In this document: positions 535 to 16,524 of the stretch, one piece after another
How the letters are laid out: every line of letters begins with the position of its first letter
Position numbering within the stretch: position 1 is the stretch's first letter
Program-made: the position numbers and the translations under genes
The notes under the pieces: model-generated
What the model saw: the letters and a program-made list of their open reading frames with translations, nothing else
Databases searched by the model: none
What the model was told of the DNA's origin: nothing
Assembly: GCA_913058295.1 (NCBI GenBank)
Contig: CAJXRD010000003.1
Location: forward strand, 47,248 to 111,247
Source of the DNA: an uncultured Flavobacteriales bacterium
GTDB lineage: Bacteria; Bacteroidota; Bacteroidia; Flavobacteriales; Flavobacteriaceae
DNA length: 64,000 bases
Direction of reading: 5' to 3'

Positions 535-1314
535 CTAGATCATTAAATCACATAAATCTCTAAGAGCATTAGTCACTTCTAGATCATCTGTCAAAGGTTC
601 CACAACAGCAACGTGTACTGCAAGTCGTTTTGGCAATCCGCTATGAATTAGTTTTGCAGCATCTACTAGTAATCTTGTAGAGACTGTTTCGGTTAATCCT
701 AGTTCTGTTAAATTTCTAATTTTCCCACCAATATGGACTAACTTTTTGGCAATACTAGCATCAATATCTGTTTCATTTATTAAAATATCGATTTCAATTT
801 TTTCCGTGGGATAATCAAATGCCATGGCAACAAATCGTTGACGAGTGGATGGCTTTAATTCCTTAAAGCCACGTTGATAACCTGGGTTAAAAGAAGCGAC
901 AAGCATAAAGTTCTTATGGGCTTTTATATTTTCACCCAACTTGTCAATATATAATTCTCTACGATGATCGGTAAGGGAATGTATGGCAACAATTACATCG
1001 GGTCTTGCTTCTGCAATCTCATCTAAATAAATAATTGCACCTTCTTTAACAGCAGCAGTTAAAGGGCCGTCTAACCAGATGGTTTGTGCACCTTTAATAA
1101 TATATCTCCCAATTAAATCTGTAGAGGAGGTTTCTTCATGACAAGCTATCGTAATTAGTTTGGTATCTAATTGATGGGCCATATATTCTATAAACCTTGA
1201 TTTTCCAGTTCCTGTAGGACCTTTTAATAAAAATGGAATTTTATTTTTATAGGACTGCTCAAAGACTTCAACTTCTTTACCAACTTCGTGATAATAAGGT
1301 GTTTTTTTACTCAT
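535..1314 (-). CDS. norQ: CbbQ/NirQ/NorQ family MoxR-type AAA+ ATPase
   Basis: Walker A GPTGTGKSRF, Walker B AIIYLDEIAEA, FNPGYQRGFKELKPSTRQRF typical of NorQ/CbbQ; next to norD. Confidence 0.9.
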   Translation of the reverse strand: MSKKTPYYHEVGKEVEVFEQSYKNKIPFLLKGPTGTGKSRFIEYMAHQLDTKLITIACHEETSSTDLIGRYIIKGAQTIWLDGPLTAAVKEGAIIYLDEIAEARPDVIVAIHSLTDHRRELYIDKLGENIKAHKNFMLVASFNPGYQRGFKELKPSTRQRFVAMAFDYPTEKIEIDILINETDIDASIAKKLVHIGGKIRNLTELGLTETVSTRLLVDAAKLIHSGLPKRLAVHVAVVEPLTDDLEVTNALRDLCDLMI

Positions 1315-1350: not shown

Positions 1351-1390
1351 AAAATATATTAAAAGACCATATAGTCTTTTAATATATTTT
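1351..1390 (-). terminator. Perfect 17-bp stem / 6-nt loop hairpin followed by a T-tract on the minus strand
   Basis: AAAATATATTAAAAGAC-CATATA-GTCTTTTAATATATTTT; placed at the stop codon of the 597-aa gene. Confidence 0.75.
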
Positions 1391-3182
1391 AAAGATCTTT
1401 TCGATTTTGAATCTCTAAAGTAATCCCTTTTAATTTGTTTTTGCTAAGTTCTAATTCATTAAAATAATTAGTTGTTGCATCATCAAAAGTTTCAAATAAG
1501 TTGTAGTAGTAGGAGATTCCCTCGTCTAAATTTTTTGAAAAGTTTGAAAAATATTTCGATTGCTTTCTATCTAAAACCCCTTTAGTTTCCTCTAATTTGT
1601 TTTTAAGATAATCGATATAAATATTCAATTCTTTAATAAACATATTTGGACGATCAGTTCTTGTAATCACATTTTGTTTACCATAAATATGATGAGTCAT
1701 TTCTTTTAAACTCATTTTTTTAGAATAATATGCCATATTAGGCCCAGGACAAACAGAAACTCCTGTTCCTTCTACTTTGGTGTCTAAACCATAGGCCAAT
1801 AGTGCCGAAGTTCCTAAACCAACACAGGTACAGGTTTTTTCTGTAACTTTATTCAGTTGATAATTATACTCAGTTGGAGCTAAACCTTGAGCTTTTAATT
1901 CTTTTATTTTATTACGTTGATATTCTCTAGACGCAGTACAAATTCCTTTTTCTTTAAACTCTTTATTTAATGCAACAAATCTTTTTGGACAAACACTACC
2001 AGGTCTTCCAGAATCAATTTTTGTTTCCTTATCTAAATCTTTACTATTTCCACGAAGATTATTAAACGGAACACCTAAAGGGGATATATCACTTAAATAT
2101 AAATCTTCCTCTTTTGCGCTTTCCAATTTTTTTATTGTAGCATTATCTACTGTTGTAGCTTCAGGAACTAACAAGAAAGGAGACCCCCAACCCACAGAAT
2201 CAACTTTATAATAATCTAATAAAAAGTTATGTTCTTTTTCAGTTCCCACTCCACCTTGAGCAGAAACATCTATAGACAAAGAAGTTTTAGGAATTGTTCT
2301 TCCTTCGTTTTCTAAAACTGAAATTAACAAATCTTCTATCGAGTCTCTTAACTCATTTCTTTTTTCTTTAAACTCCTCTAGAACTGGCCCCAAAAGATAT
2401 CCCTCTGTAGCAAAAGCATGACCTCCACAATTAAGACCAGATTCTATTCTATATTCCGAAACCCAAAGGCCTTTTTTTGCTAAAAACTTTCCTTGAATTA
2501 TAGCCGATCTATAATCACTAACCTTAAGGATTATTTTTTTATTGATGTTTCCATTTTCGTCTGGGAAAAAGTCGTCAAACTGAGACATATAGGAGTAAAG
2601 TCTTGGATTCATTCCTGCAGAAAGGACTACTGATGATTTTAGATTACTATTTGCAAAGCCCCTTAGAGCCGCGTGAGCATCATTATACTCTACAGATAAT
2701 TTTTCATCTTTAATATAATTATCCTTATCGACTTTCGTCATGATATTTACATCAATACTTCCCATTCTTAGGTTTTTCTTTGCCCAACTTTTTATTTCTG
2801 AATAATTAAAATTATTCTTGGTAAGTTTTTCAAATTCCTTTTTTACATCAGAATAATCTGGTAATAAAGAGATGTATTTTTTAATCTCCTTGCTTTTTTC
2901 TTCGGATACATTTTTTAAAGCTTCAAATTTTTGAACTGATAAATCGTTCATTAAATTTAAATAGGAAGTTATTCTTTTTGCTCTAAAGTCTTCTGCTTTA
3001 TCTGAAATTTCTTTAAAAGGAATCTCAAACTTTTCGCTGTGCATTTTTCTTAATTTCTCTAGCAAAATATCATCAACTAAAGAAATTACAGAATCCATAC
3101 CGTATTGAGCAACCTTTAAAGGGGTATCTATGGTGAACCCTATTCCCATCACTGGGATATGAAACGAATGTGATTTTTTCAT
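1389..3182 (-). CDS. Uncharacterised 597-aa Cys-containing protein, possible TIM-barrel/FMN-type fold
   Basis: Long ORF; motifs SGLNCGGHAFATEG, SIDVSAQGGVGTEKEHNFLLDYYKVDSVGWGSPFLLVPEA, GRPGSVCPKRF, EKTCTCVGLG, VSVCPGPNMAYYS; located between moaA and norQ. Confidence 0.8.
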   Translation of the reverse strand: MKKSHSFHIPVMGIGFTIDTPLKVAQYGMDSVISLVDDILLEKLRKMHSEKFEIPFKEISDKAEDFRAKRITSYLNLMNDLSVQKFEALKNVSEEKSKEIKKYISLLPDYSDVKKEFEKLTKNNFNYSEIKSWAKKNLRMGSIDVNIMTKVDKDNYIKDEKLSVEYNDAHAALRGFANSNLKSSVVLSAGMNPRLYSYMSQFDDFFPDENGNINKKIILKVSDYRSAIIQGKFLAKKGLWVSEYRIESGLNCGGHAFATEGYLLGPVLEEFKEKRNELRDSIEDLLISVLENEGRTIPKTSLSIDVSAQGGVGTEKEHNFLLDYYKVDSVGWGSPFLLVPEATTVDNATIKKLESAKEEDLYLSDISPLGVPFNNLRGNSKDLDKETKIDSGRPGSVCPKRFVALNKEFKEKGICTASREYQRNKIKELKAQGLAPTEYNYQLNKVTEKTCTCVGLGTSALLAYGLDTKVEGTGVSVCPGPNMAYYSKKMSLKEMTHHIYGKQNVITRTDRPNMFIKELNIYIDYLKNKLEETKGVLDRKQSKYFSNFSKNLDEGISYYYNLFETFDDATTNYFNELELSKNKLKGITLEIQNRKDL

Positions 3183-3376: not shown

Positions 3377-4384
3377 TTACCCTCCAATGGTAATCATACT
3401 CCTGTTTTGTAGATGTAATTTTGGTTCTTGAAGTTTCTCTAAAGTATCCATTCCTCCACGTACTTTATATTTACCAAGCACTGCTTTTTGAATGATAGGT
3501 TCTATAGATTTTCCATCTCGATAAGTAGTAAGAATATCGGATTCTGTATTTGAAAACAAACAGTTTTTTAATTTTCCATCTGCAGTTAATCGCAAGCGAT
3601 TGCATGAATCACAAAAAGGATTGGTTACCGAACTTATTATTGCAAAGCTTCCACTATAGCCTTTTATTTTATAGTTTTTAGAAGTATCGTTTTCAGCATC
3701 TTGAAGACGGACTATTTTTTCCTCTGAAAAATTAGCCTTCACTTTCTGCATCACTTCTGCATAAGAAACCATTTTCTTCATGTCCCATTTATTACCATCA
3801 AAAGGCATAAACTCTATAAACCGAAAAGATATAGGCAGGTCTTTGGTGAGTTCTATAAAGTCAATAATCTCATCATCATTAAAGTCTTTCATTAATACCG
3901 CATTGATCTTCACATTAAATCCATTTTCTACCAAGAGAAGAATGTTGCTATATACTTTATCAAATTTATCCCGACGAGTAATTTCCTTAAACTTACTCTG
4001 GATTAAGGTATCTAAACTCACATTAATATTTAGAATGTTATTTTCTTTTAATAAAGTGATATATCGATCGATTGTAATGCCATTGGTAGTAAGTGCAATT
4101 TCAACTGGAAGGGAAGCTAATTTGCTCAGAATTACAGAAGCATCCTTTCTAACGAATGGCTCTCCACCGGTCAATCTAATTTTAGTAACCCCATGAGAAA
4201 CAAATGTTTTTGCGATGGTATAAATCTCTTCAAAAGTCATTATATGCGACTTAGGAGATAAAGGAACACCTTCAGCAGGCATGCAATAGGTGCATCGAAG
4301 ATTACATCGTTCGGTTAGGGAAATACGTAAGTAAGTATGTTTCCTTTTAAAGGTATCGGTTAGTATGTTTTTTTGCTCTTTCAT
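3377..4384 (-). CDS. moaA: GTP 3',8-cyclase MoaA (radical SAM)
   Basis: CNLRCTYCMP, LTGGEPFVRKD, C-terminal FCDSCNRLRLTADGKLKNCLF and terminal GG. Confidence 0.96.
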   Translation of the reverse strand: MKEQKNILTDTFKRKHTYLRISLTERCNLRCTYCMPAEGVPLSPKSHIMTFEEIYTIAKTFVSHGVTKIRLTGGEPFVRKDASVILSKLASLPVEIALTTNGITIDRYITLLKENNILNINVSLDTLIQSKFKEITRRDKFDKVYSNILLLVENGFNVKINAVLMKDFNDDEIIDFIELTKDLPISFRFIEFMPFDGNKWDMKKMVSYAEVMQKVKANFSEEKIVRLQDAENDTSKNYKIKGYSGSFAIISSVTNPFCDSCNRLRLTADGKLKNCLFSNTESDILTTYRDGKSIEPIIQKAVLGKYKVRGGMDTLEKLQEPKLHLQNRSMITIGG

Positions 4385-13102: not shown

Positions 13103-14563
13103 TTAGTGTCCGCTTTTAACTTGGTCTACTTGAGAAGTAGTAACAATGGTTTTATTATTTCCCCAAGAATTGTAAACATAAGTTAATACATCTGCAACTT
13201 CTTCACTGGATAGTGTTTGTTTTGTCATCACACTATTATACTTATCTCCATTTACAATTATTTCTCCTGTTTTACCATTCACAACGATATCAATAGCTCT
13301 GTTTACATCAGCATTCAAATAATCTGATTTGGCAAGAGGTGGGAAAGCATTTGGAATTCCTTCTCCATTTGCTTGGTGACATGCAAAACATGTAGTGGTA
13401 TATAAATTTTTACCTGAAGCAATCTTTTCAGCTAAAGATTTTTCGCCTTTTGAAACAACTTCTTTAGTTTCATCATCAGGCATTTCTTGTAATGTTCCTC
13501 CTTCAGGATTATAAATACCTTCTTGTTTTACACCTGAGTAAAGAGTTTTGTCTTCTTCACCACTTACTTTTAACATTCCTAAAGCACCTTTATTAAAAGC
13601 TCTAAAAATTGCATGATCTACTAAAATAAAAGTTCCAGGAACGTCCACTTTAAAATCTACAATAGCAGCTCCACCTGCAGGAATAGAAGTAGTTTGTACA
13701 TTAGTATTGATTAAATCTCCACCTTCCACATGTACATTATCGAAAATTTCACCAATAACATGGAAAGACGAAGTTAGATTTGGCCCACCATTTCCAACAT
13801 ATAAACGAACTGTTTCACCTACGTTTGCTGTAATTGCATTGTCTCCAGTTAAAGATCCAACTTTTCCGTTAAATACAACATAATCCGCATCTTCATCTAC
13901 CGCTTTTTTCATGTCGAAAGCTTGTAAGCCTGGAGCACCATTTTCACCTTTAGTATAAAAATCACCTTGCATGATATAGTATTCTTTATCTACTTTAGGT
14001 AAACCACCTTCTGGTTCCACTAATATTAAACCATACATCCCATTTGCAATATGCATTCCTACTGGAGCAGTTGCGCAATGATATACATATAAGCCTGGAT
14101 TTAAGGTTTTAAAAGAAAATGTCTTACTATGTCCTGGAGCTACAAAAGAAGAGGTTGCCCCTCCACCAGGTCCAGTAACGGCATGTAAATCTATATTATG
14201 AGGTAATTTATTATCTGGGTGATTAGATAAAGTAAACTCTACTTGGTCCCCAACTCTAGTACGAATGAAACTTCCAGGAACTGATCCTCCAAAAGTCCAA
14301 TACATATAAGTTGTCCCATCAGTCATGGTACCTTCTTGTTCTAAGATTTCCATATCTACGATTAATTTTTTCGCAGGGCGATCACCAACTGGTTCAGGAA
14401 CAAATGGGGGAGCAGTTAGTTCCGCATTCATAGTTCCATTAAGTGCAATAGTTGCTGGGTCTTTTTTAGCAACTTCTTTTTCTTCAGATTTGCAACTTGC
14501 AAATAGGATAGCTACTAACGCTACTATTCCTAGTAGTTTTACATTTAATTTTAATAATTTCAT
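13103..14563 (-). CDS. nirK: Copper-containing nitrite reductase with C-terminal cytochrome c domain
   Basis: Cupredoxin motifs HNIDLHAVTGPGGGA, GLYVYHCATAPVGMHIANGMYG, SSFHVIGEIFD; C-terminal CFACHQANGEGIPNAFPPL. Confidence 0.93.
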   Translation of the reverse strand: MKLLKLNVKLLGIVALVAILFASCKSEEKEVAKKDPATIALNGTMNAELTAPPFVPEPVGDRPAKKLIVDMEILEQEGTMTDGTTYMYWTFGGSVPGSFIRTRVGDQVEFTLSNHPDNKLPHNIDLHAVTGPGGGATSSFVAPGHSKTFSFKTLNPGLYVYHCATAPVGMHIANGMYGLILVEPEGGLPKVDKEYYIMQGDFYTKGENGAPGLQAFDMKKAVDEDADYVVFNGKVGSLTGDNAITANVGETVRLYVGNGGPNLTSSFHVIGEIFDNVHVEGGDLINTNVQTTSIPAGGAAIVDFKVDVPGTFILVDHAIFRAFNKGALGMLKVSGEEDKTLYSGVKQEGIYNPEGGTLQEMPDDETKEVVSKGEKSLAEKIASGKNLYTTTCFACHQANGEGIPNAFPPLAKSDYLNADVNRAIDIVVNGKTGEIIVNGDKYNSVMTKQTLSSEEVADVLTYVYNSWGNNKTIVTTSQVDQVKSGH

Positions 14564-16508: not shown

Positions 16509-16524
16509 TATGATATATGTCATA
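16509..16524 (-). promoter_or_regulatory. Crp/Fnr-family-like operator upstream of norC
   Basis: TATGA-N6-TCATA inverted repeat (TATGATATATGTCATA), centre 33 bp upstream of the -7 box centre (about -40). Confidence 0.6.

Follow-up and report, generated by a model that had tools for sequence, protein, structure and literature searches.

To our knowledge, little is understood of the way in which unsaturated lipids are made anaerobically by bacteria that lack FabA. FabX of Helicobacter pylori, a flavin and Fe-S enzyme of unsaturated fatty acid synthesis, uses O2 in vitro. This decanoyl-ACP dehydrogenase/isomerase (HP0773; 363 residues; PDB 7e1q, 9lt5) has its catalytic histidine at H182, accompanied by N99 and T243, and its C-terminal subdomain binds a [4Fe-4S] cluster through C300, C304, C308 and C320 (PMC8626469). 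In Neisseria gonorrhoeae, NGO1024 (UfaA) is induced 8-10 fold under anaerobic conditions along with aniA (nitrite reductase) and dnrN (an Fe-S repair protein) (PMC3032703). NGO1024 is a homologue of FabX, and PMC11300592 cites it as indispensable for making unsaturated fatty acids anaerobically and describes the electron acceptor of the gonococcal enzyme as unknown.

The gene described here lies in a window of 64,000 nucleotides (positions 47248-111247 of contig C3) of a 3.07-Mb Flavobacteriaceae genome, where it is present in a single copy. An earlier note on this DNA had placed an open reading frame between moaA and norQD; the frame is real, begins with ATG, and contains the motifs quoted from it exactly. 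The gene and its immediate neighbors are as follows:

1389-3182, minus strand: predicted FabX-like protein of 597 residues (open reading frame, homologues, AF2 model, best Foldseek match FabX)
3377-4384, minus strand: moaA, upstream of the 597-residue gene
535-1314, minus strand: norQ, downstream of the gene, with AAA_5 and CbbQ_C domains
downstream of the gene: norD, with a VWA_CoxE domain

The minus strand also bears norC, norB, a cytochrome-fused nirK, moeA and further moa/moe genes, as well as genes for an FGE-sulfatase protein, a Sco protein and an alginate-export-type porin. The copper nitrite reductase at 13103-14563 has a cytochrome c domain fused to its C-terminus. The terminator that had been reported beside the gene was not found: no terminator-like site separates moaA from the gene on the minus strand, and the only one between positions 400 and 5500 is on the plus strand at 3687-3710, inside moaA.

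Homologues with 45-81% identity were matched in 109 of 300 Flavobacteriaceae genomes, two of the matches being weak and spurious, and a gene retained at this level in about a third of the genomes is a genuine conserved gene. Across the Bacteroidota the family was found in 145 of 396 genomes, and named records with homologues include Aquimarina, Cellulophaga, Algibacter, Galbibacter, Flavobacterium hydatis, Chryseobacterium elymi and Mucilaginibacter. Homologues also occur in metagenome-assembled genomes labelled Ignavibacteria or Calditrichia, taking the deposited labels at face value, while no relatives were found among plasmids and viral contigs. Broken or split copies, with internal stops or as fragments, were seen in some genomes, and two genomes carry two copies of the gene.

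Fold, active site and cysteines

Sequence libraries do not recognize the protein. Searches of Pfam, NCBIfam and PHROG, and of PDB sequences by single sequence and by profile, returned nothing meaningful, and matches to apolipoproteins and spindle proteins were rejected as coiled-coil noise. The Pfam model of the nitronate monooxygenases (NMO, PF03060) does not match the protein and is absent from the families listed for 64 homologues. The feature shared with NGO1024 is the proposed role. Membership of the NMO superfamily was detected only by profile-profile and structure comparison.

A FabX/UfaA-like identity had been predicted before folding, from the barrel-like order of motifs and from the anaerobic neighborhoods of homologues. 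The AF2 model, built on the 64 homologues, has a pLDDT of 91 and a pTM of 0.92; folded by itself, the C-terminal subdomain has a pLDDT of 70. When the model was compared with the PDB by Foldseek, the best match was H. pylori FabX (E 2.6e-10, TM 0.64-0.66 over FabX), followed by PfaD, trans-acting ER domains (DfnA, MlnA), FabK and then nitronate monooxygenases. Almost all of the matches listed are NMO-superfamily proteins, including the ER-type barrels of yeast FAS, which identifies an NMO-type TIM barrel. The earlier suggestion of an FMN-dependent TIM-barrel enzyme of nitronate monooxygenase or glutamate synthase type thus holds at the level of the superfamily, with FabX, PfaD, FabK and NMO as top PDB matches and with invariant GGH and FMN-site residues, but glutamate synthase does not appear among the matches listed.

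Profile comparison served as an independent line of evidence. Run against a profile that combined FabX of Bacteroidota with long FabX-like proteins, hhalign aligned residues 134-379 with a probability value of 92.8, an E-value of 4.1e-7 and a score of 61.6, whereas the best of 60 column-shuffled controls scored 26.7. When the partner profile held only the nine long FabX-like proteins, the comparison was weak (P 0.034) because that alignment is shallow, and the match became strong when four FabX proteins were added. The aligned blocks of the two profiles are GSIDVNIM/GNGAIFLNCM, LSAGMN/LAAGLN, KVSDYRSA/IISSVRAL, YRIESGLNCGGH/YIIVEGPLAGGH, AQGGVGT/PAGGIFT, VGWGSPFLLVPEA/VQVATRFTISQEA and AKEEDLYLSDISPLGVPFNNLRG/AEEKDIVVNMASTTGYPMRMLRN. 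The protein is almost certainly a highly diverged member of the NMO flavoprotein superfamily, with a fold nearest to FabX among solved relatives. Its domains and conserved residues, all encoded on the minus strand, are:

2049-3182, minus strand: predicted FMN-binding TIM-barrel domain, residues 1-378, in NMO/FabX order (secondary structure, Foldseek, hhalign)
2772-3071, minus strand: helical insertion in the barrel, residues ~38-137 (AF2 secondary structure)
1389-2048, minus strand: C-terminal Cys-rich, mostly helical subdomain, residues 379-597 (AF2 model)
2418-2429, minus strand: active-site motif C252-G253-G254-H255, invariant in 125 sequences and aligned with AGGH of FabX-like proteins
1938-1991, minus strand: C398 to C415, candidate [4Fe-4S] ligands, invariant in 125 sequences and aligned with C319 and C332 of the FabX-like protein L208
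1824-1832, minus strand: C451-T-C453 (EKTCTCVGL), candidate [4Fe-4S] ligands, invariant and aligned with EKTCLCTGM of L208
1749-1751, minus strand: C478 (VCPGP), fifth conserved cysteine of the subdomain, invariant

FabX and the 597-residue protein have in common the TIM barrel, the C-terminal Cys subdomain, the catalytic His in GGH and the FMN-site residues. They differ in that identity is only about 16%, in that the helical insertion of ~100 residues and a long helical C-terminus are found in the 597-residue protein only, and in the spacing of the cysteines. PfaD, the trans-ER domains, FabK and the NMOs likewise resemble the protein in the FMN TIM barrel and the region of the catalytic His, but have no Cys-rich subdomain and work on other substrates or in the other direction.

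The six cysteines that had looked conserved (C252, C398, C415, C451, C453 and C478) are invariant, both in 64 aligned homologues and across 125 sequences whose identity goes as low as 42%, and the Gly-rich blocks pointed out with them are conserved as well. The GGH motif is invariant over the same 125 sequences, as are H255, N146, GG310-311, G331 and S/T334. By alignment, H255 would stand where FabX has its catalytic H182, N146 where it has N99, and S/T334 where it has T243, and the protein very probably binds FMN. C252, which lies beside the catalytic GGH at the position of S179 in FabX, may have another task.

The other five cysteines all follow the barrel, as does the Cys subdomain of FabX. 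Their arrangement is C398-X16-C415-X35-C451-X-C453-X24-C478; the FabX spacing, CX3CX3CX11C, is not kept here, and the FabX-like proteins L251-L254 retain CX3CX3C. C398, C415, C451 and C453 are collinear with cysteines of FabX-like proteins of ~420 residues from other Bacteroidales (L207-L215, L221-L250, L255). An Fe-S cluster is therefore likely, and we expect that the protein probably carries one. These ~420-residue proteins show a similar order of motifs (NC...GKC...EKTCLC) and share a profile score with the 597-residue family, but unlike it they are recognized by the Pfam NMO model. As a group they have a different Cys set (NCEGLGYLL...GKC...TCLCTGM..YDCWTCGH).

Proposed reaction and its alternatives

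The foremost structural matches, FabX, PfaD, the trans-ER domains and FabK, are all acyl-thioester enzymes, and it is fairly likely that the 597-residue protein also acts on an acyl-thioester substrate. We favor an FabX-like enzyme independent of O2 as the simplest reading. Whether the family is in fact an FMN/Fe-S acyl-ACP dehydrogenase/isomerase producing unsaturated fatty acids in the absence of O2, as FabX/UfaA do elsewhere, we regard as evenly balanced. Such an enzyme would bind FMN and one [4Fe-4S] cluster and would take a saturated medium-chain acyl-ACP as its substrate. H255 would remove a proton from the acyl-ACP while a hydride passed to FMN, and the resulting 2-trans double bond would be isomerized to 3-cis, giving a product that could seed unsaturated (or branched unsaturated) fatty acids. 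FMN would then lose its electrons to the cluster, which would pass them to an acceptor other than O2. Membranes would in this way stay fluid when the cells denitrify or otherwise grow anaerobically, in Bacteroidota that normally rely on O2-dependent desaturases or have none.

The same fold admits a FabK-type enoyl-ACP reductase used at low oxygen, which would reduce rather than oxidize its substrate. FabK is among the top structural matches and has the catalytic His in common with the protein, but the host genome already has a FabK-like gene, and we think this reading unlikely. An anaerobic FMN/Fe-S oxidoreductase might instead act on another acyl or small-molecule substrate, as a PfaD-like trans-acting reductase, on a quinone, or on an intermediate whose usual enzyme needs O2. 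PfaD and the trans-ER domains do score like FabX, and the neighbors of homologues include the anaerobic-biosynthesis genes nrdDG and nadAB; against this, the recurrent neighbors yielded no polyketide or PUFA synthase genes, and the architecture of the Cys subdomain favors FabX over PfaD, which makes such a substrate rather unlikely, if conceivable.

The FabX-like reading, put at its broadest, is that an unrecognized family, carried by about one in three Bacteroidota genomes, produces unsaturated fatty acids anaerobically by means of an FMN/Fe-S acyl-ACP dehydrogenase whose Cys arrangement is its own and whose electron acceptor is not O2; in this form we advance it tentatively. If true, it would supply the missing anaerobic route in carriers without FabA, FabX and desaturases. 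It would also offer one gene through which anaerobic membrane synthesis could be tested in Bacteroidota that denitrify or otherwise live at low oxygen, and it would represent a second natural design of FMN/Fe-S fatty-acyl dehydrogenase.

Genomic neighborhoods and denitrification

Of 120 homologues, 42 have one or more low-O2/NO or nadAB genes nearby, compared with 2 of 40 random regions of the same genomes, although part of the former count reflects repeated sampling of the single genus Aquimarina. In a matched subset the counts were 14/59 and 2/40 (p 0.013). Among the 120 loci, the neighbors were nadA/nadB (24), Rrf2 (17), RIC/ScdA (9), nrdD/nrdG (8), nosDFY (8), cbb3 (5-6), nirK (5) and norQ/norD (5). 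The last count shows that the gene is not constantly linked to NOR in the manner of a norQDEF-type accessory, and no fatty-acid synthesis genes were identified among the recurrent neighbors. The theme common to these neighborhoods is low-oxygen/NO physiology in general.

Several arrangements recur. The nadA-nadB pair is often directly downstream of the homologue, a proximity that could perhaps reflect a fumarate-capable NadB and an oxygen-sensitive NadA. The nrdG-nrdD genes for anaerobic ribonucleotide reductase are immediately upstream on the same strand at eight loci, and a gene for tryptophanase or a beta-eliminating lyase is near homologues in several distant genomes (five loci).

The position of the gene had been taken to suggest a role in NO/nitrite metabolism, either redox or maturation. 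In the strictest form of this idea the protein would be a factor dedicated to nitric oxide or nitrite reductase, its FMN and cluster delivering electrons or assembling cofactors. In the host and a few relatives the gene does lie between moa and norQD or beside nirK/nos, and in 80 Flavobacteriaceae genomes, with relatedness uncorrected, NosZ was somewhat commoner in carriers (18/28) than in non-carriers (20/52; p 0.036). Since NosZ is only moderately commoner, the gene does not count as a component of denitrification itself: most homologues lie in genomes where no nor, nir or nos gene adjoins them, 10 of the 28 carriers have no NosZ, and the fold is that of acyl-processing enzymes and not of a carrier or chaperone. 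We consider such a factor improbable, and the suggested role is not supported. NrdD, found in 5/28 carriers and 4/52 non-carriers, showed no significant difference.

Another function close to NO would be true NMO activity, in which nitroalkanes, nitronates or other nitrosative-stress products were detoxified. The superfamily fold agrees with it, as do NO-stress neighbors, for example Rrf2 regulators and the repair protein RIC/ScdA, but NMOs of solved structure rank below FabX, PfaD and FabK and have no Cys subdomain, and many carriers have no NO-related neighbors; there is little likelihood that this is the function.

Upstream sites and other fatty-acid genes

Upstream regions of homologues were scanned for palindromes. 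With about 2,300 patterns tried on 111 non-redundant regions, the top palindrome was ATGA-N6-TCAT, present in 25/111 regions and upstream of 38/982 neighboring genes (p 1e-10); over all 117 regions the count was 28/117 against the same 38/982 (p 3e-12). The boxes read ATGAY-N4-RTCAT and mostly lie 55-145 nt before the start. This is the shape of a CRP/FNR-family site. The E. coli-like box TTGA-N6-TCAA was not enriched upstream of homologues. The family is a conserved one of the Bacteroidota, invisible to sequence libraries, with a CRP/FNR-type box upstream, and on the FabX-like reading a regulator of this type would turn the gene on as O2 falls. In the window, the 194-nt gap directly upstream of the 597-residue gene has no exact box, and one site was found elsewhere:

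16510-16523, unstranded: ATGATATATGTCAT, the sole exact match within the window to the CRP/FNR-type pattern ATGAYNNNNRTCAT, upstream of norC at 81 nt from its start

This site heads an all-minus cluster of ~16 kb, norC ... moaA - 597-residue gene - norQD, which contains nor, nir and Moco genes. Since 0.5 exact ATGAYNNNNRTCAT sites are expected by chance in 64 kb, the one observed is weak evidence alone.

The host genome has an O2-dependent desaturase-type gene in addition to the FabK-like gene, and no FabA was found in it above the curated cut-off. Thirteen carriers have neither any PF00487 desaturase nor a true FabA at that cut-off. One of them, G016 (91% complete), was not in the phylum sample, and the other 12 also lack FabX-type proteins. 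The genomes for this test were hand-picked, so the result shows compatibility and not association. About three quarters of the tested carriers also have a desaturase, and the 597-residue gene is therefore not their only route.

No genome among the 396 has both a gene of the 597-residue family (145 genomes) and a FabX-type gene (88 genomes), with 32 expected if the two were independent, a mutual absence confounded by phylogeny in that 82 of the 88 FabX-type genomes belong to one family. The ~420-residue FabX-like proteins, which occur in other families of organisms (f16, f18), never occur together with the 597-residue gene in these genomes. One Bacteroidota family has this ~420-residue group in nearly every genome, and in most loci inspected the gene for it adjoins a phosphoglycerate-mutase-like gene.
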